From Salinimicrobium tongyeongense (GTDB taxonomy: Bacteria; Bacteroidota; Bacteroidia; Flavobacteriales; Flavobacteriaceae): a stretch of 64,000 nt of DNA. Of the stretch, positions 39,957 through 51,877 are shown in pieces (positions within the stretch are counted from its first letter, which is position 1; each line of letters starts with the position of its first letter). The stretch is taken from positions 1,178,001 to 1,242,000 of the forward strand of contig NZ_CP069620.1 of NCBI RefSeq assembly GCF_026109735.1, written 5' to 3'. The position numbers were made by a program, and so were the translations under genes. The notes below the pieces were generated by a model that was not told where the DNA came from, did not search any database, and worked only from the letters and a program-made list of their open reading frames with translations.

Positions 39957-42068
39957 TCACATATCGAAATACCAGTTGAAAATATCGGTACGCAACCCAA
40001 TATTGAACCAGTAGTTACTATTGCTAAAATGATTTAAAGTATTTACCTGTGGATCAAAATTCCGGTAAATAAAACTTCCGAAGAACTTCAGGTTAGTCAC
40101 CGGATTTACTATATATCCCACTTCTGCCTGACTGAAAAATGACTGGGTGGTATTGCCCTGCCCAATTTCCACACCGGTTTCAAAAGGCCGGTCTTCTTCG
40201 GTTCTATAGATATTACCGCCGTAATAGGCGCCATTCTCAAGAAAATCGAAGCCGCGTTCCCCGTAGATGGCTTTCACGTGAGCGTAATACCTTCCGGTTT
40301 TATAGCGGGCTATGGCCACCAGCTCCCTAAAGTTGGCGCCCCACAAATGCGCCATAGATTGATTGGCATGCCCGTAATTAAGCGTGATGGTATTGTGCGA
40401 ATAGGTATAAGGCCGCACCTGATTGTATTCAAGCTGTAAGTGAAGATCCTGAATATTAAATGCATTAAAATATTTTGCTCCTACCTGAAAGCCGTGTTTG
40501 TTCTTCCAGCTGCCCTCGCCCCCAAAAACATCAGTGGAAGAAAATTCATCAATGAGCCACTGCCCATAAGTAAGAAAACTGTTGTTCCATTTGTATTTTC
40601 CTGTAAGCCCAATAATGGCATTTCCCGCCTGTGCGCCGGTAGAAAATTCGATCGCCCTGTAAAAAATTACAGGATTGAGATAATTGAGGTCAAAGCCACG
40701 GTTATTGTCATTCTCCCACATCACCGATTCAAAAAAGCCGATATTAAGGCGCTTTGTGACATTATAGCTCAAGTAGTGGTTGGCCATGAACTTGGTACGG
40801 TAAGAATCCTCTCCAGTAACTTCGGGCCGCACATCGCGAAGTGACATCCAGGTGTTGGTGTATTTGATCTTCCAGAAGCTGGTATTCAGCTTAAAAAATG
40901 GGTATGGCGAAGCATTGTCGCTCAACAGCAAAGACCTGTACCCGTCACCAATAAAATTCTTCCCGTGGCCAAACTGCAAATTGATAAATTTTGCAGGGCT
41001 AAAAGAAAGATAACCTTCAGCTACAGGATAATCGTAAGCCTGGCCCATAAAAGGCTTGGCAATCCCCCGGCCGGGAATAATGGCAGCACCTTCGGTACCC
41101 GGCCTTATAGATTCTGCATATCGATTAAAATAATCTGCAAACCGCCCCTGATTTTCATAAACCACCGAGTAAAAATTGAAATTCCTGCCCAGCCCACCCT
41201 GAATAATCGCTGCCCGGGTGTTGTTATAGGTCACATCAAGCTCACTGTCAAGGTCTTTCCCAACCTGCAGGTCAAGCCCAAAATCTATCGTAAACCAGTA
41301 ATCTTCGCCCTGAAATTTAAAAAGGTGCTCATTCCACAATTTTCTTTCAAACCAGGAATTAACCGATTTTTGCATGCCCAGCAACTCTTCTTCAAAGCTG
41401 TAGTACTTTTTTACTTCGGAAAACAAAAAGGGTTTGGAAGCCGAATGAAAATTGGTTCCCACCATGTTCACCTCATCTTCAAACCTGCTGTAGAACTCGT
41501 GAGATAACGGGATATTGATCTCACTCTCAAACCTTGGGTGATCAAAATCAAGAGAAGCGATTTCGCCGTATTCCCGGCTTAGCGCAAAATCCTTTTGCCG
41601 CCCCACAATTTCAGCTTTCACAACTTCCACTTCCTGCTCTACAATAACTTCGGAAGCAGCTTCAGCTTCTACAGGAATATTCACCGGCATTCGAAACTGC
41701 ATGTCAATTGGCCTGCCGTTATAAGTGGCAGGAGAAATCTGCGGAAGGGTTCCAAAAATGCGATTTATTTCATCCTTTAATTCAGGATAAGCGGCATTGA
41801 TATAATTTATTCTGAAATTTCCGTCGCTGGTAACTTCAAAAAGTACCACTACCTGACCTTCGTAATTATCTTCAGCAACAATTTGAGGCAGGCGAAACTG
41901 CGCCCTGATCTTCTTTTTCAGAGTGGTGGTGAAACAGGCTTCCTCCTGCTCAAAAGCCACAGCTTCACATTCAGAAAACTGCGGAAACCTCTCCGGATCT
42001 CCTTTAAAGTCCTGGGAAAAAGCGAAAAAAGGGAGGAAAAAGATGAGGAGCGGGTAAAATTTAGTCAT
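39957..42068 (-). CDS. remB: RemB-like gliding-motility outer-membrane protein with N-terminal TonB-C-like domain
   Basis: A 703-residue secreted protein. The signal peptide (MTKFYPLLIFFLPFFAFSQ) starts at the ATG at 42068; a GTG at 42077 is less likely. Residues about 30-135 align with the TonB C-terminal domain of the two upstream TonB proteins: a Cys pair (FSECE and EEACF), VVVLFEVTSDGNFRINYINA and PATYNGRPIDMQFRMPVNI. The rest is a beta-rich outer-membrane region with repeated aromatic strands (FGHGKNFIGDGYRSLLLSDN, WSLRDVRPEV-like WMSLRDVRPEV). From memory this pattern matches RemB of flavobacterial gliding or a Wzi-like barrel. The tonB genes lie just upstream. Confidence 0.6.
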   Translation of the reverse strand: MTKFYPLLIFFLPFFAFSQDFKGDPERFPQFSECEAVAFEQEEACFTTTLKKKIRAQFRLPQIVAEDNYEGQVVVLFEVTSDGNFRINYINAAYPELKDEINRIFGTLPQISPATYNGRPIDMQFRMPVNIPVEAEAASEVIVEQEVEVVKAEIVGRQKDFALSREYGEIASLDFDHPRFESEINIPLSHEFYSRFEDEVNMVGTNFHSASKPFLFSEVKKYYSFEEELLGMQKSVNSWFERKLWNEHLFKFQGEDYWFTIDFGLDLQVGKDLDSELDVTYNNTRAAIIQGGLGRNFNFYSVVYENQGRFADYFNRYAESIRPGTEGAAIIPGRGIAKPFMGQAYDYPVAEGYLSFSPAKFINLQFGHGKNFIGDGYRSLLLSDNASPYPFFKLNTSFWKIKYTNTWMSLRDVRPEVTGEDSYRTKFMANHYLSYNVTKRLNIGFFESVMWENDNNRGFDLNYLNPVIFYRAIEFSTGAQAGNAIIGLTGKYKWNNSFLTYGQWLIDEFSSTDVFGGEGSWKNKHGFQVGAKYFNAFNIQDLHLQLEYNQVRPYTYSHNTITLNYGHANQSMAHLWGANFRELVAIARYKTGRYYAHVKAIYGERGFDFLENGAYYGGNIYRTEEDRPFETGVEIGQGNTTQSFFSQAEVGYIVNPVTNLKFFGSFIYRNFDPQVNTLNHFSNSNYWFNIGLRTDIFNWYFDM

Positions 42069-42143
42069 ATCCTGCACAAAGCTGAATGGATTACGGGGGA
42101 AAGATACATTTTTTTAAATATCTGGAATATGTTCCTTCAGCCA

Positions 42144-42195: not shown

Positions 42196-42912
42196 TTATT
42201 CCTGTATCCTGAAGGTTATGGGCAAAGAATAGATCACCCCCACAGGCCTGCCAGCCTGTTTACCGGGAATGAGATCGGGAAAAGCATTGATCACCCTAAT
42301 GGCCTCTTCCTCCAGTTTTGGATGTGGCCCACGTGCGCCAATGGCTTTCACCGTACCGTCTGTTTGAACTTTAAAACTTACGTAAATGCGATGCAGGCCA
42401 CTCAAACCTAATTTTTCGCTCAGGCCTTTATCAAAAGTGCGACCTACAAACCTGTTTACCTGTTCGCTAAAACACTGTTTCCGGGCATCATTATTTTTGA
42501 GACCTTCACATCCGGGGAAAACAGGCACCTCTTCTACCGCGTGAATATTGTAGTCTTCGATCTTTTCTTCCTCATCAATATATTCCACTTCTTCAACCGC
42601 AACAATCTCTTCAAGGGCTTCTGTAGGCGCTATCAGGGTCTCCTCCTTAAGCTCATCGTCTTTAATGATCTCTACCTCTTCAGTTATTTCCTTCGGAAGC
42701 TGGGGCGGCTTCACGTCTTCCAGCCGGGTTACCGGCACTGCTTCTTCTTCAAAAGCATAAGCCATTTGCAGCTCTGGCTGGGATACAGGCGCCGAAGGTA
42801 CCTGCCATTCTATGAGTTGCCAGGCCATGAAAAGCGCGAGGACCAACCCCAATTGAAAAAATAAAATGCTCCTTTTTGAAAGATCTGCCTTTGTATTCTT
42901 CTTGTTTTTCAT
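42196..42912 (-). CDS. TonB family energy transducer (second paralogue)
   Basis: A 238-residue TonB-like protein that passes proton-motive force to outer-membrane receptors. It has an N-terminal helix (SILFFQLGLVLALFMAWQLI), a Glu/Val/Pro-rich periplasmic linker (about 60-130), and a C-terminal domain with the Bacteroidota-type start VFPGCEGLKNNDARKQCF, then IYVSFKVQTDGTVKAIGARG and GVIYSLPITFRIQE. It lacks the long polyproline run of its neighbour. It is about 45% alike to the paralogue by eye. A separate terminator follows it. Confidence 0.92.
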   Translation of the reverse strand: MKNKKNTKADLSKRSILFFQLGLVLALFMAWQLIEWQVPSAPVSQPELQMAYAFEEEAVPVTRLEDVKPPQLPKEITEEVEIIKDDELKEETLIAPTEALEEIVAVEEVEYIDEEEKIEDYNIHAVEEVPVFPGCEGLKNNDARKQCFSEQVNRFVGRTFDKGLSEKLGLSGLHRIYVSFKVQTDGTVKAIGARGPHPKLEEEAIRVINAFPDLIPGKQAGRPVGVIYSLPITFRIQE

Positions 42913-43120: not shown

Positions 43121-43846
43121 CTAGTCTTGCACCCTAAAGGTGATAGGCAGGGAGTACAATACCCCAACCGGTTGACCACGTTGCTTACCAGGTTGCATTT
43201 TAGGCAGCATATTTACTACTCTTTCTGCTTCCTGCTGCAGGCGTGGGTGTGGAGCACGTGCCCCTAACACAGTAACCGAACCGTTCTTTTCAATTCTAAA
43301 CTGAACGTAGATCCTGTTAATTCCTGAAAGACCAAGATCACTTCCCAAACCTGTATCAAACCTACGGTTTACAAATTCGTTGATCTTTTCACTCATACAG
43401 TTCTTACGGGCATCGTTGTTCTTCTGGTTTTCACATCCGGGAAAAACAGGCACATCTTCAATAACTGCAAACGGAACGTCCCCAATTTCTTCCTCTTCTT
43501 CAACAACCTCTACTTCTTCAACTTCCACGATTTCTTCCTGGTTAGTCTCAGTAGATTCGATCACAGTTTCTTCAACTTCTTCTTCATCCTCTACGATCTC
43601 GATAACCTCGGGTGCTGGTGGCGGTGGTGGCGGTGGTGGTGGCGGTGGTGTATTCAATTCGGTGATTGGCACATCTTCCTCCTCCAGGGCGTCCATATCA
43701 ACCATTCCGGTATCAATAACCTCCCTGTCGTAGGTTTTCCACTCAATCGCCTGCCAGGTGACAAAAAGCATCACGATCATTCCAATCTGGAAGAACAGAA
43801 CGCTTCTTCTGGACAAATCAGCTTTTGGGTTCTTTTTGGGTTTCAT
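43121..43846 (-). CDS. TonB family energy transducer (first paralogue, polyproline)
   Basis: A 241-residue TonB-like protein. The N-terminal helix (SVLFFQIGMIVMLFVTWQAI) is followed by an 11-Pro run (codons 43616-43648) and an acidic linker rich in Glu and Val (VEDEEEVEETVIESTETNQE). The C-terminal domain has VFPGCENQKNNDARKNCM, IYVQFRIEKNGSVTVLGARA and GVLYSLPITFRVQD. It follows vanZ by 33 bases, so it may be co-transcribed with gcvH and vanZ. Which receptor it serves is not known. Confidence 0.93.
   Translation of the reverse strand: MKPKKNPKADLSRRSVLFFQIGMIVMLFVTWQAIEWKTYDREVIDTGMVDMDALEEEDVPITELNTPPPPPPPPPPPAPEVIEIVEDEEEVEETVIESTETNQEEIVEVEEVEVVEEEEEIGDVPFAVIEDVPVFPGCENQKNNDARKNCMSEKINEFVNRRFDTGLGSDLGLSGINRIYVQFRIEKNGSVTVLGARAPHPRLQQEAERVVNMLPKMQPGKQRGQPVGVLYSLPITFRVQD
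43616..43648 (-). repeat. Proline-codon tandem repeat in tonB
   Basis: Eleven consecutive proline codons (CCA/CCG mixed). The mixed codons suggest selection on the protein, not recent slippage. Confidence 0.8.
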
Positions 43847-43879: not shown

Positions 43880-44317
43880 TTAATTTTTCATTAAATCTAA
43901 ATTTATCTTAGCTTTTAACCTCGTTAGATTTTTCCTTAAGATCCAGACGACCACTCCGGCCACTACCACACCCGTGGTATTAGCAAGAATATCAAAAAGA
44001 TCGGGTTGACGATAACTGGTTATTACACCCTGAAGAACCTCAATAAAAATGCCAAAGACTATTGAAGCCAGGGAAATAATGATTATCCTCTTAAAAAGGC
44101 CTTTTTGCTCAAAGGTAAAAAGGCCGAAGAACATCCACAGCAGGCCAAGACCAAAATAGGCGCCGCAGTGCATGGCTTTATCACTCATCCCCAGGTTTTT
44201 CACAGGCGTGTCGGCAAGGTTGATGAGAGACAGGTATAGTATAAGCCCCGTATAGATTAAGGCAGGAAAAAAGAAAAGAAGTTTAACCTTCAACAATTTC
44301 TGTGTATTCCTCGGCAC
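43880..44317 (-). CDS. VanZ family membrane protein
   Basis: A 145-residue protein with four transmembrane helices. The motif [20 protein letters not shown] and the later [20 protein letters not shown] are classical VanZ marks. Members are often of unknown function; the name comes from teicoplanin-resistance clusters, but no resistance role is implied here. It overlaps gcvH by 35 bases, so the two are tightly coupled. Neighbours sprA, gcvH and tonB recur in this order in Flavobacteriaceae. Confidence 0.85.
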
Positions 44318-44663
44318 TTAAAAGGTCGTCAATTTGAGAAGCGTCACTAAAGCGGATCTTCACCATCCAGCCTTCGCCATAAGGGTCTGAATTCACTTTC
44401 TCTGGCTCGTCTTCAAGACTCTCATTAAATTCGATGATCTCCCCCGAAAGTGGAGCAAACAGGTCAGACACTGTTTTTACAGCTTCAACGGTACCAAAAA
44501 CCTCTTCCCTGTCAAGAGTTTCGTCTACAGTTTCTACTTCTACATAAACGATATCCCCCAACTCTCCCTGGGCAAAATCGGTAATACCTACTACTGCTAC
44601 ATCTCCTTCAATTCTCACCCATTCGTGATCATTGGTGTACTTTAAATCTTTTGGAATTTTCAT
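44283..44663 (-). CDS. gcvH: Glycine cleavage system H protein
   Basis: Carries the lipoylated aminomethyl arm between P and T proteins of the glycine cleavage system. It is 126 residues. The lipoyl-bearing Lys63 lies in [19 protein letters not shown], with the usual start KYTNDHEWV and [17 protein letters not shown]. It has its own strong promoter at 44683-44713, right after sprA. The P and T genes are not in this window. Confidence 0.97.
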
Positions 44664-44722: not shown

Positions 44723-47700
44723 TTAATTTCCGAAGTTATATCTCAAAGTCACACCCGAACGTATAGTGGTTTGAGGATATGCTGTAGAAATGGCATATTC
44801 AGAAAAACTGTGATCGTAATAAACTTCTGCAGTAAGGTTCTTGGAAAGGGCATAATCGGCCTTAAAATAAATTGCCCAAATATCCTGCCCGGCCGTTACC
44901 TGACTATTATCTATATCGAGATATCTTATCACCGTCTCGTTGTGGCGGTAAGAAACATCTGCCTTAAAGTTAAGGTCACTGCTTAGAATTCTTTGACGCC
45001 CTCCAAACTTGGTATCTATTTTAAGGTCTTTTATGCGGTAACCCAGCCCCAGCGTGTATTGGTTCCCGTTGATTTCGGTAAGCAGGTTGTTGTCAAAACT
45101 CAGTGACAGTGCCCGGTCTTTCTGAATATCGGCTAAAATCTTAACCGAATTTGCCATTTCAAGATCAACGCGAATCAACGGACTAAACTGTTCGGTGAGG
45201 TTCACGTTTGAAAACAGCAATTCACTCTTGTAGTTCCCGGCCTGGTCAACTTCCCGCTGATTCTCAGGCTTGTAATCGAGATTGCTCTGAAACTGGTTAA
45301 GGGTATAACCAGCGGTGTAGCCGTGATTAATTGAAAATCTTTTAAAATTCTTTCTGAACCATGGCAGGCGCATAAAGCCGGTGTATTTAAGGTTCCAGTT
45401 TGGAAGTGGAAAATCTCTGAAAGCACCTAATGAAACATCATCGGGGTCGGCGCCCGAATAAGCCGCTAAAAATGCCGGAAGCAGTACATTCTGACTATTC
45501 CTGCCAAAGCCCACCGGGTAACCTTCAGCATCGGTCTCATTAGGATCAAACCCGTTCGCCACTGCAAGCCTCCTTGCCACGGCCAGCCTGTTCTCCCTGA
45601 AGTCCTGGAAAGTAGCTGAAGATTCTGCCGAACTCTGGCTGAAAGCTGTCTTCAGCAGCACTGTAGAAATACTGAAGTTCCCATATGTAAGCGGGGTAAG
45701 CGGATTATACCGGCCTTCCGTGACCCTGTAATTCTCCTGAAAAGTTTCAGAATACAACCGGTTTGCGGTAAGCTGAATTGTAAGGTCGGGCAGAAGTGAA
45801 ATTTCGGCGTTGATGCCAAGCTGCTCGTTTTCCACTTCGGTGTACTGCTGGTTAAAATCTTCGTAAAGGGTAAGCCAGCCTTTGCGAGCCGCCATATACC
45901 TCACGTCTTCCTGGCTCCCCACGGTAAAGCCAAAGGTAGGGTTCCAGGTTCCCAAAAATCCGATGTCATTGGTATAGCCCGGCAAAAAGATCCCGTTGTT
46001 CTCCTGGTAATTTACCTGTACTCTCCTAATGGAAGTAAGCAGCCCAATCATGGTATTATACGTTCTGTCTCCTGCACTAAGCCTGGCAACATCGGCCTGT
46101 GACGGCGCTGCTGGTTTATTGCCCAAAGTGGGCACTGCCCTGCTTCGCTCCTCGATGGTATTTGGGCCTCCCCCGGGGCGGGTCCTTTTCTTAAGCCCAA
46201 TATAATCGTAAAGCGTCTGCATTTCAAGGTTTGCACTTATCTGGTGCATATTGGAATTCTGAATGCTGTTCCCAAGATCGGGTACGTCTTCAAGAGTTTC
46301 ATAAATTTCGGAACCACGTTCCCACTGGAAGTTCCCTGTATAAGAATAAGTGGTTTTAAGGAAACCAAGCGCCGGGATCTTTGAAAGTGGAAGATCATAA
46401 TTGAGCTGCAGCGACTGGAAATGTTGATTTGGAATCCCTGTATTGAAGAACCCGTCCCACACCCTGGTGGTGGTATCGGGATTGTTCTCATCATCAAAGT
46501 AATTTCTCACTACCCTGTTGGTCGAAGAATCAAAATTGAGCCTCAGGCTTTTGGTGAAATTGTAATTGATGGTGTACTGCCAGTCAAACAGGAAATTTCT
46601 CTGGTATAAAGTGGGAATTCCGTTAAGGAACCCAGGAGGCAGATTGATCTCCCTGAATTTTTGTTCATTGTACTGCCTGAAGATGGTAGAGGTAGCCGTA
46701 ATGTTTGAGGGAAAAACGTTAAAGTTGAAATCTCTCAAAAGTGCAAAATACGCGCTACTGTCAAGGGCTTTTACATTTCGCAAAGGCTCGATATTCACCG
46801 GTGCAAATGTATAATCGTAAGTTGCGCCCACCCGCACGGTTTGATCAAAAGCATCTTCTATTTCAAAATCCCTGTGATCTACCTGGTTGTAACTTCCCGA
46901 AACACTTAAATTTTCAATATCATACGGCATGGGCTTATCGTCATTGACCCGCTCCTTGCGAAGTCCAATAACGTTAATACTTTGGCGACGGGTGTAATCT
47001 TCGGCCCTTTCTTTTAGGTCATTCCTTATCTCTTCTGTTGCGGCATTGTCAAGCACGGTCTCGAGCTCCAGGTCAAGAAATTCCGGATCATATTTGGGGG
47101 TGATCAATTCTTCGCCATAGCTGTAACTCACCGGGATTCTCACCCCCCAATTGCGCGGCAGCAACTGCCCCATATTGAGGTTGCTCACCACGTCATACTG
47201 AAGGAAATCTTCTCGGCTTCGCTGGTTTGGCCCCTGCTCCAGAGACCCAAACCCCACCGTACTCTTTCTTCCGGTAGCCGAAAGGTTTGCGAAATCGGCC
47301 ACGTTGGCATCCATATTTACAATTGCTGCCCAGCCACCTTCATTATCGAGTTCAGAAAGCCGAAGTTCGTTGAACCATACTTCGCCGCAAAGGTTTCTGG
47401 AAGTGGCTTCAGAAAGGCCATTTTTGACACCCAGCATCAGCATTCTCACATTTCCGAAGCTTGGGTTTCCTTTGATTCCAACCCTTAAACGCCCCATCTC
47501 ATAAGGCGCATCGGCTGCCACCATTTCTCCGGCTTCGTTAAAGAAGTTGAGCTCGGTAGAGACCAATTCAGGATTTCCAATGACGGTGGCTTTCACTTCC
47601 TGCAACAATTCGAGCGACAGGTTCATCCGGTTTTCTGCAGGCCATATTTCTGAAGCCGAAACAGCCCCAAATTCGGTAGGCTTCAGCGGAATTTCAATCT

Positions 47701-50700
47701 GGTAAAAGTTATCGGTAAAATCGGTACCAATCCTCATAAAGGCCACCAGTTCCCCTTCCTGCCATTTTAACCTGTTCACTACAGGCTCGGCATGAATGAA
47801 CATTTCAAGGTTCTTATACTGGCGCATGTCTAACTGGAAGTTTTTATAAACCCCGCGGGCATCCTGCGGCTCCAGGTCACAAACATTAATGGCAAGCGAC
47901 TGCTCGTTCTGCCTCACCGTGGTATTGTTGTTCATCAATTCTTCACGATCTACACCCGGAGGCAATACATACGGAATAGGCTGCCTGTTCTCGTTCTCTT
48001 CGATACTTACCGAAGAAACCGTGAAAGTGGTACTTTCATTGGCCGGATCAGATTTGTCTGGATCCAGGGTCTGGGTGTACCTGCGATAGTCCCCGCGCAC
48101 CAAATCCATAGTTCCAAACCTCAACACGGTGGGTTCCTCAAATTCTGTGAGGTACATTCTCATGAACCTTATAGACCTGAAATCACCAATCCCTCCATTG
48201 GCCGCGGTAGGCTCATAAATTGGAATTTTAAATTGCAGCCATCTCACCGGCATCTCCTGCCCGTTGGGCAAACTTATCGTGAAGTTCTTCACATCGGTCA
48301 CGTAGCGGCTGTTGTCAATATTCATATTCGGGTAAACAGGCACTTCATACTCGTAGTAACTGTCAACCGTATTCATGGTATTGTCGCGGTTAAGGTCTTC
48401 TACAGTGGGAAGCGTGCTGTTCCCGCGATTGGTATTCGAAAAATCGGGCGGGGAGTTTCCTTCAATTCCGTTGTAGTCGTAGTAGCGCTCTAAAATTCCT
48501 CCGGAAGCATTCAAAAAGTAATCGTAGTTATCGGCTGCCGGATCGGGAAGGCTTTGGAAAGCCGGATATTGCGCTGCTTCTTCAGCATCTGAAAGTCCGT
48601 CGTAACCCACATCCTGATTCAGCCTTTCCTGGCCTTCAGAATTAAACGCGTAGATAAGCGATTGGTTAGACGGCACCTTACCAAATTCTGTAGGCGTGGT
48701 ATTTTGTACACCTCCGTCTACCGGAAGGCCATTTTCATATTGTTTCCTGCCGTCCTTTAAAACATCTTCTGAAATGTTCCCCAGGTTAAAGACCAGCTTT
48801 CCGCCGTCATTCCCGGCATTTTCTGAATACAGGAAAGGGTCCATCATCCAGAATTCAATGTACTCCACATTGCTCTGTTCAAAGTTGGTGGAATTTATGG
48901 CCCGGCTTATCCCTCCAAAATTTTCCGAAGGATTTGGCAGGGTATTGCCGCCGGCAGCCTGCGGATTAAAGTTATAAGGCCCACGAATGTTGGGGTAGTA
49001 AGCGAGATCCAGAGTATAAAGCACCTGCGACTGCCCCTGCACCACGTCTATATTGGGGAAAATCTCATTTAAAAATACCCTTCTGGTGGCATAGCTGGAA
49101 AGGTCGGAATCTGAAACTCCCGAAGGCCTGCTGCTTCCGTAGAAAACAGGATCTATGCTGTACCAGGCGAGTTTTGCCCTTTTATAGTTGGTCGCGAGGT
49201 TCCCGTTGGCCAGCTCACCTCCAAAACCAAGCGGCACACTCGAAAGCTCCCACCCCAGCGGATTATCTATGGCAATAGAGGTTTGTGCAGCTTCAAAATC
49301 GTCTACATAAGTGGTGGCACGGCCATTGAATTCACTTCCTTTTGGTGCTCCCGGCACTAAATACGCCACTTCACCGCGCAGCGATAAATTGGAAGCAACA
49401 TCGGTGTCAATATTCGGAAGTTTGTTCACCCAGCGGGTCAAAAATGGCAATTCTGTTGAGTAATTCAGGTTAAGCCCAAGAATGGTATTGTTGATGGGCT
49501 CATAACTGTAGTTCGATTTTTGGGTTAAGGGGCGTTCGTTGAGATTGAGGTAGGTAGCCCCCATCAAAAAGTTCTCATTGAACAAATGCTCTACATGCAG
49601 CCCGGTAAAGCGCTTTGTTTGCTGCCCAAAAAGGGCATTATTCTCTGTTGATATCTGGATAGGGATATTTGAGGCCAGCAAAGCTTCATCAAGAATCTGC
49701 ACCCTTCCAAACTGGTAATTCACCACGTAATCTACACCTTCCTGCAGCACCCGGCCTCCCGCCGTCACCGTAACCGACCCCTGCGGAACATTAAATGCGC
49801 CAATTGCAATCCCTTCAACATTTGAAGATTTGTAACGCCCGCGAAGCTGGAACTTATTCTTCTCTGCCTGCTCCTGCTCTGCCTGTGTTTTGGTAGTTTC
49901 GTAAAGCGCCCTGAAAACGTATTTTTGCTGATTGGCATTCCAGGTCTCCGGAATTTCATAAACCTCTGAACCGGTATTTGGATTGGGGTCAAGTTTTCTA
50001 AAAAGATAACTCCCGAAGGGTTCAACCGAGGTAAATATAATATTCCCGGTTTCAGGATTAATGGTAATTCCCGGCACAAAGTCAAAGAACCCGTCGCCTC
50101 CCGAAATAGGGTCTCCCGCAACATTGAGGTTATCGAGGTTAAACACCCTTAAAAGTGTGGTTTGCTCTACATCTTCGGGCAGGGGAACACCGTCTACACC
50201 GGTGATGTAATTGAGGGGCTGAGGATCTGTATAGACTATATTCATCCTGAAATCTTCCCGTTCCAGATTAAATGCCGCCAGGTTGTAGATGTTCTTCATC
50301 ATAAGGTCCCACACCGGCTCCTCTACATTGGTAACAGAACTTTTCAGCATTTTCACCACCAGGTTTTGAGACACAGAAGATTCTACTCCCGTACCTCCCG
50401 AGGCGTCAATCCCGTCACTGGCAAATTCACCCACCTGGTAAACTTCACCTCCCACGGTGTATTGAAAAGCCACCCCAAGAATTTCATCACTTGCCAGCCG
50501 CTGGTTGAGGGAGATGTACCCCAACCTGGTATCTACCCGAAATTCGGTTGGTTTTAGCTGCCGCGCATTTTCCAGCTTTACGTAATCCCTTCCTTCTGAA
50601 ACCTGCAAACCTCCAAAACCAGACTCTACCCTGGCCACATCGCGTATTGCAGGGCTAAGCACAGATTCCTGCGGACCTGTAATCCCGAATGGGTTAAGGT

Positions 50701-51877
50701 CGTTATTGCGGTTATCGGCAAAAGAACCTGCGGGCCGGTTAAAGAATCCTGCCGGCGGATTCTCGAGCCCCACATTTCCCGCTACCGGGGCTTCCCCAAG
50801 ATCTTGTATAGCTACAATGTTACGGGTATCTGTGAGGTTCTGCACGTTATTCGTCCTGTTGGTCACCCAAACCTGAACCCGGGTGATCTGCACATTCGAA
50901 TTTATAAAGGGGTAATCTTCAAGAGCATCGTCATAATGATCTCGGAAGTAATGAGCGAGGAAAAAGTGCTTATTCTCGTCGTATTCTATAGCGAACTTGT
51001 CGAATTCCTGAACAGTTGCGCCACCCTCAACATTTACGGTACGCCGCTCACTCTTTTGTTCAGAAAAAACTCCGGTGATCGTGGTTTTGCCAAACTGAAG
51101 CTGGGTCTTGATCCCAAACAGGCTCTGTGCCCCCTGTATCAAAGCTGAATTTAGGGGCATGTTGATATTCCCCACCTCGATCTTTTGGATAATATCATCT
51201 TCGGTAGGGGTGTACTCGAGTTTTAACTGGTTCTGAAAATCGAAAGTTGACTCTGTATCGTAATTTGCGGTCACTTTAAGGCGTTCGCCAACATTTCCAA
51301 GCAGGCTCAACTGAATTCGCTGATCAAAATCGAAGGTGAACGAACTCCTGTTACGGGGCGAGAAAGCAGGGTTATCCCTTTTTGAATACAAAACCCCCAG
51401 GTCAAGCGCGACCGATCCCTGCGGAATAAATTCAATGTCGCCCCCTCCAAATATATTCTGAAAGAAATCTGAGTTCACATAAAATCCCGGAAGCAGATCT
51501 CTCTGCCCTTCCTCGGTACCTTCTTTCCTTCCCGATAAAGCATCTGATTTTTCTTTGAAATACTGCTGCATTTCCTCCTGTATCACCAGCTCCTGGTACT
51601 CTTCGGGAGTAAGGATGAGAGGGGCGGTTATATTCAGCCTGCCCAGGGTTTCGGTATAAATATACCGGTCTATAACCGGATCATAAGTGTAAGAAGCAAC
51701 TATGCTATTGGGATCAGGCAAGCGGAGTTTCCCCAGAGAATACCCCGTTTTTGTAGTGTCCTGTTGAACGAGTGTATCCTGTGCCAGGGCAGGCGACGAA
51801 AATACCAGTACACCAATAAGTGCAAGGGAGATTGAAAGCCAAAACCTGAAATTGTAATTTTGCTCCAAAGGAGTCAT
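44723..51877 (-). CDS. sprA: Cell-surface protein SprA (type IX secretion translocon)
   Basis: The giant outer-membrane barrel through which type IX secretion substrates leave the cell; it is also needed for gliding. It is 2384 residues long, near the family norm of about 2400. The signal peptide is WLSISLALIGVLVFSSPALA. The N-terminal region carries repeated SprA modules (GDIEFIPQGSVALDLGVLYS). Most of the length is beta-strand with many aromatic residues, ending in TLRYNFGN. The start overlaps ruvA by 4 bases, so the two genes are coupled. One near-match to the dispersed palindrome lies at 49441. Confidence 0.97.
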   Translation of the reverse strand: MTPLEQNYNFRFWLSISLALIGVLVFSSPALAQDTLVQQDTTKTGYSLGKLRLPDPNSIVASYTYDPVIDRYIYTETLGRLNITAPLILTPEEYQELVIQEEMQQYFKEKSDALSGRKEGTEEGQRDLLPGFYVNSDFFQNIFGGGDIEFIPQGSVALDLGVLYSKRDNPAFSPRNRSSFTFDFDQRIQLSLLGNVGERLKVTANYDTESTFDFQNQLKLEYTPTEDDIIQKIEVGNINMPLNSALIQGAQSLFGIKTQLQFGKTTITGVFSEQKSERRTVNVEGGATVQEFDKFAIEYDENKHFFLAHYFRDHYDDALEDYPFINSNVQITRVQVWVTNRTNNVQNLTDTRNIVAIQDLGEAPVAGNVGLENPPAGFFNRPAGSFADNRNNDLNPFGITGPQESVLSPAIRDVARVESGFGGLQVSEGRDYVKLENARQLKPTEFRVDTRLGYISLNQRLASDEILGVAFQYTVGGEVYQVGEFASDGIDASGGTGVESSVSQNLVVKMLKSSVTNVEEPVWDLMMKNIYNLAAFNLEREDFRMNIVYTDPQPLNYITGVDGVPLPEDVEQTTLLRVFNLDNLNVAGDPISGGDGFFDFVPGITINPETGNIIFTSVEPFGSYLFRKLDPNPNTGSEVYEIPETWNANQQKYVFRALYETTKTQAEQEQAEKNKFQLRGRYKSSNVEGIAIGAFNVPQGSVTVTAGGRVLQEGVDYVVNYQFGRVQILDEALLASNIPIQISTENNALFGQQTKRFTGLHVEHLFNENFLMGATYLNLNERPLTQKSNYSYEPINNTILGLNLNYSTELPFLTRWVNKLPNIDTDVASNLSLRGEVAYLVPGAPKGSEFNGRATTYVDDFEAAQTSIAIDNPLGWELSSVPLGFGGELANGNLATNYKRAKLAWYSIDPVFYGSSRPSGVSDSDLSSYATRRVFLNEIFPNIDVVQGQSQVLYTLDLAYYPNIRGPYNFNPQAAGGNTLPNPSENFGGISRAINSTNFEQSNVEYIEFWMMDPFLYSENAGNDGGKLVFNLGNISEDVLKDGRKQYENGLPVDGGVQNTTPTEFGKVPSNQSLIYAFNSEGQERLNQDVGYDGLSDAEEAAQYPAFQSLPDPAADNYDYFLNASGGILERYYDYNGIEGNSPPDFSNTNRGNSTLPTVEDLNRDNTMNTVDSYYEYEVPVYPNMNIDNSRYVTDVKNFTISLPNGQEMPVRWLQFKIPIYEPTAANGGIGDFRSIRFMRMYLTEFEEPTVLRFGTMDLVRGDYRRYTQTLDPDKSDPANESTTFTVSSVSIEENENRQPIPYVLPPGVDREELMNNNTTVRQNEQSLAINVCDLEPQDARGVYKNFQLDMRQYKNLEMFIHAEPVVNRLKWQEGELVAFMRIGTDFTDNFYQIEIPLKPTEFGAVSASEIWPAENRMNLSLELLQEVKATVIGNPELVSTELNFFNEAGEMVAADAPYEMGRLRVGIKGNPSFGNVRMLMLGVKNGLSEATSRNLCGEVWFNELRLSELDNEGGWAAIVNMDANVADFANLSATGRKSTVGFGSLEQGPNQRSREDFLQYDVVSNLNMGQLLPRNWGVRIPVSYSYGEELITPKYDPEFLDLELETVLDNAATEEIRNDLKERAEDYTRRQSINVIGLRKERVNDDKPMPYDIENLSVSGSYNQVDHRDFEIEDAFDQTVRVGATYDYTFAPVNIEPLRNVKALDSSAYFALLRDFNFNVFPSNITATSTIFRQYNEQKFREINLPPGFLNGIPTLYQRNFLFDWQYTINYNFTKSLRLNFDSSTNRVVRNYFDDENNPDTTTRVWDGFFNTGIPNQHFQSLQLNYDLPLSKIPALGFLKTTYSYTGNFQWERGSEIYETLEDVPDLGNSIQNSNMHQISANLEMQTLYDYIGLKKRTRPGGGPNTIEERSRAVPTLGNKPAAPSQADVARLSAGDRTYNTMIGLLTSIRRVQVNYQENNGIFLPGYTNDIGFLGTWNPTFGFTVGSQEDVRYMAARKGWLTLYEDFNQQYTEVENEQLGINAEISLLPDLTIQLTANRLYSETFQENYRVTEGRYNPLTPLTYGNFSISTVLLKTAFSQSSAESSATFQDFRENRLAVARRLAVANGFDPNETDAEGYPVGFGRNSQNVLLPAFLAAYSGADPDDVSLGAFRDFPLPNWNLKYTGFMRLPWFRKNFKRFSINHGYTAGYTLNQFQSNLDYKPENQREVDQAGNYKSELLFSNVNLTEQFSPLIRVDLEMANSVKILADIQKDRALSLSFDNNLLTEINGNQYTLGLGYRIKDLKIDTKFGGRQRILSSDLNFKADVSYRHNETVIRYLDIDNSQVTAGQDIWAIYFKADYALSKNLTAEVYYDHSFSEYAISTAYPQTTIRSGVTLRYNFGN
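49441..49454. repeat. Near-match to the AAAATGNCATTTT palindrome (in sprA)
   Basis: AAAATGGCAATTCT, with one extra A and one base change. Shown as a likely degenerate copy. Confidence 0.35.

Follow-up and report, generated by a model that had tools for sequence, protein, structure and literature searches.

What is a domain of the kind that ends TonB proteins doing at the N-terminus of an outer-membrane protein? The question is raised by a gene within a 64,000-nucleotide stretch of the Salinimicrobium tongyeongense genome (assembly GCF_026109735.1, contig NZ_CP069620.1, positions 1,178,001 to 1,242,000; hereafter the window). The gene encodes a RemB-like protein and shares its strand with two tonB genes, a vanZ-like gene, gcvH and sprA. 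In window coordinates, the features are:

39957..42077, minus strand: RemB-like outer-membrane protein gene; 706 aa from a GTG, the likely start being the ATG at 42068 (residue 4)
42012..42068, minus strand: signal peptide, residues 4-22, MTKFYPLLIFFLPFFAFSQ, identified by eye; without a lipobox
41667..41993, minus strand: TonB_C-type domain, residues 29-137, with the Cys pair C37/C48 (profiles, alignment, predicted fold)
41520..41666, minus strand: variable linker, residues 138-186, with a short conserved stretch, E169-I173 (alignment)
39960..41519, minus strand: barrel region, residues 187-706; some related barrels outside Flavobacteriaceae match Pfam Wzi
42196..42912, minus strand: second TonB, 238 aa, C-terminal domain at 42196-42543 (Pfam, ORF)
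43121..43846, minus strand: first TonB, 241 aa, proline-rich, C-terminal domain at 43121-43468 (Pfam, ORF)
43880..44317, minus strand: VanZ-like protein of the conserved locus (synteny; Pfam VanZ 29 bits, just below the 30.1 cut-off)
44283..44663, minus strand: gcvH of the conserved locus (Pfam, synteny)
44723..51877, minus strand: sprA, T9SS outer-membrane translocon, 2384 aa (NCBIfam TIGR04189, 2821 bits)

Identity of the gene and of its N-terminal domain

The window protein runs from its signal peptide through the domain of residues 29-137 and the variable linker to a long barrel region, and ten Salinimicrobium relatives are 68-86% identical to it over the best segment. The order sprA-gcvH-vanZ-(other genes)-remB recurs in all 23 Flavobacteriaceae regions compared, three of them from Salinimicrobium. 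Published tables place remB likewise near sprA: remB and sprA are Fjoh_1657 and Fjoh_1653 in F. johnsoniae and 01803 and 01807 in F. suncheonense (PMC4910214), FP2117 and FP2121 in F. psychrophilum (PMC4572689), and 04710 and 04685 in Gramella echinicola (PMC4891872), a spacing of four tags in the three Flavobacterium strains. By this position and family-wide synteny, the window gene is assigned as the RemB orthologue. The initial annotation had called it RemB-like, which also agrees with the full-length similarity found at E 1e-30 or better in 78 of 120 Flavobacteriaceae genomes, its own included. The protein had no match in an NCBIfam scan, a result that counts against the TonB_C assignment described below. 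The published tables list remB as an adhesin-like gliding gene; their RemB passages give no mechanism, and a TonB-type domain goes unmentioned in the RemB passages of PMC6801697, PMC4910214, PMC4572689, PMC4666044, PMC4891872 and PMC5714932. No experiments on the N-terminal domain were found in the literature searched, which excluded most subscription papers, and the paper on the SprA translocon does not use the term RemB in its main text (count 0), a point counted against the docking role proposed below.

Pfam TonB_C matches the whole window RemB at E 0.0054 and the isolated domain at E 1.7e-4 (22.4 bits, below the 24.6-bit cut-off). Of 56 orthologous RemB domains it matches 54 at E up to 1 (best 8.6e-9); these 56 are the 63 aligned rows less seven near copies. 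A profile of the C-termini of 36 neighbouring TonBs, built without any RemB, scores the window domain at 52.2 bits, against 6.0 bits for the best of 2000 shuffles. An HMM-HMM comparison, the type of check that the initial annotation had proposed (here hhalign, 56 RemB domains against the 36 TonB C-termini), aligned 108 of 115 columns with a probability of 99.4 and E 1.9e-21. The Cys pair C37/C48, which the RemB domain has in common with the neighbouring TonBs, is kept in 63 of 63 aligned orthologues, rows that include one identical pair and 11 of Salinimicrobium or its genus. The window protein also has the strand 'VVVLFEVTSDGNFRINYINA' and the end 'GRPIDMQFRMPVNI', so that all three elements on which the earlier alignment by eye relied are present, and the limits it gave (residues about 30-135, at 41660-41990) lie close to those obtained here (29-137, at 41667-41993). 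A Pfam JHBP match to the domain alone (E 0.0037) was taken as chance, being seen in 3 of 56 members.

When the domain profile was run by sequence against solved structures, an unrelated protein came first (PUF60, E 0.0017) and TonB reached only E 1.3-1.4, so that a fold search was needed. The domain alone, modelled with 11 rows from the genus, gave a best model of five with pLDDT 91.6 and pTM 0.81; the other four reached pLDDT 91.2, 90.3, 64.0 and 52.8, the two poor ones being counted against a docking role. The modelled elements follow one another as helix, helix, two strands, helix and strand. The best solved match in Foldseek was 6i97_D, TonB bound to FoxA (E 2.7e-4), the sole match at E of 0.001 or below, and the first 17 rows were all C-terminal domains of TonB, TonB-like proteins (FusB, HasB) or TolA. 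Alignment with TonB by VIA-align gave Z 8.7 and an rmsd of 2.1 over 85 residues, two chains reaching Z 8. The predicted fold of the RemB N-terminal domain is thus of the TonB/TolA C-terminal type, and neither of the outcomes named beforehand as refuting, a missing profile match or a differing fold, occurred. The TonB C-terminal-type domain on the window RemB is real and homologous, its sequence profile and fold being held in common with the TonB C-terminal domain (PF03544; 6i97 chain D).

The likeness does not extend to the architecture. Unlike TonB, the RemB domain is N-terminal on an outer-membrane protein and is not accompanied by an inner-membrane anchor. Since it follows a signal peptide and stands ahead of the barrel region, RemB, judged from its sequence, has neither the N-terminal inner-membrane anchor nor the C-terminal domain position of a TonB transducer.

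Distribution of the fusion and nature of the barrel

In all 78 RemB-positive Flavobacteriaceae genomes the match starts at residue 28 or before and so spans the N-terminal domain, at a search threshold that would have passed a RemB barrel without it. A phylum-wide search, in which the best three candidates per genome were scored, matched RemB at E 1e-20 in 74 of 296 genomes. Of these, 24 are family members, S. tongyeongense included; in the other 50, all outside Flavobacteriaceae, every match starts at residue 186 or later and none reaches the N-terminal domain. Twenty of the 50 outside loci were fetched: the domain profile found the domain in none of them but in all 20 family loci scanned, a part of which had gone into the profile itself, and the 9.5-18 kb read at each of the 20 held no sprA, gcvH, vanZ or tonB. 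All 61 genomes of another order carry TonB_C, the matches listed starting at column 25 or beyond, past the Cys pair. Fusion of the N-terminal domain to the barrel is a Flavobacteriaceae feature in the genomes sampled, which answers the survey of RemB homologues suggested at the outset (domain reached by the match in 78 of 78 family genomes with RemB and in 0 of 50 outside). Given the barrels outside the family that lack the domain, the name RemB may cover two architectures. A Sphingobacterium protein is annotated as 'gliding motility protein RemB' in PMC4666044.

Across 63 rows the domain has no gaps at the columns of the window protein, and its mean majority-residue frequency is 0.61; the linker reaches 0.42 and the barrel 0.66-0.77. 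Being gap-free and better conserved than the linker, the domain is therefore under constraint. One explanation is that it serves the barrel itself, by aiding its assembly or by plugging or gating its opening to the periplasm, and needs no partner elsewhere. The domain is indeed matched wherever the barrel is found in Flavobacteriaceae, directly ahead of it, and the linker motif E169-I173 is conserved; however, homologous barrels beyond Flavobacteriaceae lack the domain, and the intervening linker is long and variable, so that a service of this kind seems unlikely to us.

The barrel itself can be placed only at one remove. Four of ten outside barrel homologues match Pfam Wzi (PF14052), two of them above the cut-off, and one further outside homologue that was scanned has no PF14052 match. 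The window RemB does not match PF14052 at E up to 1, and a sequence search with the homologue profile turned up no solved barrel. Because it is the outside homologues and not RemB itself that match PF14052, the RemB barrel would be Wzi-like by transitive homology only. Wzi is an 18-stranded, lectin-like capsule-assembly barrel; RemB differs from it in the added TonB-type domain. One outside locus (L086) lies amid polysaccharide genes, while the few neighbours scanned in four other loci are mixed. An acetyltransferase that we take to resemble surface-sugar enzymes is encoded upstream of remB in five family loci; L111, L112, L114, L116 and L121 hold DeoC-like, other and surface-sugar-type acetyltransferase genes between tonB and remB.

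Relatives of the domain and the neighbouring TonB

According to the initial annotation, domains of this type normally form the end of transducers that are anchored in the inner membrane. For Flavobacteriaceae that is too narrow. A survey of the S. tongyeongense genome and 20 family loci, chosen mostly for long frames and with architectures named from sequence, found the same Cys-pair domain on M56-like proteins (one to three copies), small secreted proteins, lipoproteins near M56, a beta-helix-like protein and others. The domain stands at or near the C-terminus of these relatives, except in a 697-aa protein (L159), and none of those surveyed carries it ahead of a barrel. The M56-like proteins of L155, L156, L157, L158 and L162 have two or three tandem TonB_C domains at or near the C-terminus. 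In L159 the domain lies mid-way in the protein, which has an early membrane segment, and in L160 it ends a secreted repeat protein. Elsewhere in the S. tongyeongense genome, outside the window (contig 1, about 1105600-1106360), two adjacent frames of 137 and 142 aa (L076 and L078) encode small secreted-looking proteins that consist of little beyond the Cys-pair TonB_C domain.

An unrooted tree was built from 136 domains. In it the 56 RemB rows cluster together and unite with 12 lipoprotein rows (99/95), and all 36 neighbour TonB rows fall elsewhere; the tree rests on 119 columns, has long branches, and its bootstrap had not settled. The nearest sampled relatives of the RemB domain would thus be the M56-adjacent lipoprotein domains, subject to those long branches. 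By eye, RemB and the lipoproteins mostly have 'PA' before the last strand, where the TonBs mostly have 'PG', and R71 and H74, near-invariant in the alignment of neighbouring TonBs, are kept in neither RemB nor these lipoproteins. An origin of the RemB domain by duplication of the adjacent tonB is not supported, the domain being grouped with lipoproteins apart from the 36 TonBs. The lipoproteins themselves are unlike RemB in having no barrel, in being lipid-anchored, in carrying the domain C-terminally and in their other gene partners.

Of 12 loci chosen since both domains had been seen there, 11 (L082, L155, L156, L158, L161-L164, L170, L173 and L174) have a TonB_C-like lipoprotein gene downstream of an M56-like gene on the same strand, at a distance of up to about 1.3 kb; the two proteins are possibly a functional pair. 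By analogy, the RemB domain could act on the sensing side of a signalling pair that reports the state of the surface inward. Such a role would suit the grouping of RemB with the M56-adjacent lipoproteins, their same-strand arrangement in these selected loci, and the retention of both RemB and such a lipoprotein in eight genomes that have no Cys-pair TonB (see below). The grouping could, however, stem from long-branch attraction, and we regard a sensory role as very unlikely.

The initial annotation suggested that the domain may compete or pair with TonB, or may link motility or surface function to energy supply. Within about 1.5 kb upstream of remB, a TonB_C frame is present in 35 of 52 family loci and absent from 17, with deoC there in 16 of the 17. 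Two of the 17 (L058 and L059, the same loci as L114 and L116) have tonB further upstream, and the remaining 15 all belong to one genus, g120, which is probably Flavobacterium and in which two of 17 loci do have a TonB in the flank. The N-terminal domain is matched in RemB of all 17 g120 genomes, as in the window RemB. Whereas two tonB genes separate vanZ from remB in the window, deoC alone takes their place in the three g120 loci read further. The TonB-profile search covered 10 of the 17 g120 genomes. In one of them (G203) Cys-pair TonBs adjoin remB. In the other nine, the only matches across the Cys-pair columns are RemB and, in eight of the nine, a frame of 172-214 aa; these frames (L222-L229) are M56-type lipoproteins in 8 of 8 cases. 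RemB itself is the best TonB-profile match genome-wide in seven of the nine, and ordinary TonBs without the Cys pair remain in these genomes. As nine of the ten g120 genomes searched keep the RemB domain without a Cys-pair TonB, the domain persists beyond Cys-pair TonB in this genus. On these nine genomes and the three loci with deoC in the place of tonB, the neighbouring TonB as an obligate partner of RemB is rejected for g120. A dedicated pairing of the two is unlikely, because the domain groups with lipoproteins and persists where the locus has no tonB. The partnership floated in the initial annotation is accordingly weakened: the RemB domain is no copy of the neighbouring TonB, and 15 g120 loci have no TonB_C frame in the flank.

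The converse comparison was made among genomes without RemB. A TonB_C gene stands beside gcvH in all 17 RemB-negative family genomes looked at (of 42). Of 20 RemB-positive loci, three have no TonB; in each of the other 17 the gcvH-adjacent TonB is N-type. In the 17 RemB-negative loci it is Y-type in 14 by pattern and in two by eye, and N-type in one (L215), the pattern being a loose one made after the data had been seen. As L215 is RemB-negative with an N-type TonB, N-type and RemB are not strictly tied. The split could reflect co-evolution or shared ancestry, between which a gcvH tree did not resolve. A YPxxA motif is absent from the gcvH-adjacent TonB in RemB-positive loci (L105-L124) and nearly always kept in RemB-negative ones (L205-L221).

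These comparisons bear on whether the RemB domain engages the Ton system directly, either by joining the C-terminal domain of a TonB in a mixed pair or by competing with it for TonB boxes, and so ties RemB to the proton-driven motor. The tonB frame just upstream of remB in most family loci, the way the TonB type next to vanZ and gcvH tracks RemB, and the parallel of an M56-like protein that ends in TonB_C, close to a lipoprotein whose domain resembles that of RemB, would all fit such an engagement. It is at odds, however, with the g120 genomes, in which RemB keeps its domain although the three loci read further have deoC in the place of tonB and nine of ten genomes show no Cys-pair TonB; with the TonB_C gene beside gcvH in every RemB-negative genome looked at, which makes tonB independent of RemB; and with the absence from RemB of the near-invariant R71 and H74, while the N/Y split may only mirror ancestry. 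We consider direct engagement of the Ton system improbable. No conserved TonB box was seen by eye in 63 RemB linkers.

A possible docking role in the periplasm

The TonB fold, the constraint on a domain that shows none of the transducer traits, and the strand addition by which the C-terminal domains of TonB and TolA bind their targets (PMC12204202) together lead us to favour a periplasmic docking module that works by strand addition and is not a transducer. We hold this tentatively, at a probability of roughly 0.45. According to this proposal, the Wzi-like outer-membrane barrel of Flavobacteriaceae RemB would have acquired a domain of the TonB fold at its N-terminus, on the periplasmic side. 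Because it is not attached to an inner-membrane anchor, the domain could not by itself transduce force. Its edge strand would instead take up a strand of a periplasmic partner, anchored in the inner membrane or linked to peptidoglycan, and this uptake would fix the surface barrel to the envelope. We infer a single gain, a periplasmic topology, a disulfide, strand addition and the existence of a partner. The description of the domain as sitting on an outer-membrane barrel and facing the periplasm therefore holds as to its position ahead of the barrel region, whereas its topology is deduced and the barrel is assigned by homology. The full-length RemB model, with pLDDT 34.7 and no barrel visible in it, is counted against docking. 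Outward-facing positions of the last strand, judged from alternation, are variable in 63 RemB rows except for Q127, a pattern that does not suggest one conserved ligand there.

A broader possibility is that the TonB_C domains of RemB and of the M56-adjacent lipoproteins make up one class on the side of the outer membrane, and that they form mixed pairs, through strand exchange, with a second class on the side of the inner membrane, that of TonB and M56 proteins. We think this quite unlikely. If true, two TonB-type domains would meet in the periplasm and so bridge the envelope, and a Wzi-like surface barrel, and perhaps gliding as well, would be coupled either to the Ton motor or to signalling through M56.

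Whatever its partner, the domain shows that the TonB_C fold is a movable module in Flavobacteriaceae, and counts of TonB_C matches overcount energy transducers. For RemB, a conserved TonB-type domain on what would be the periplasmic side offers a concrete experimental handle.
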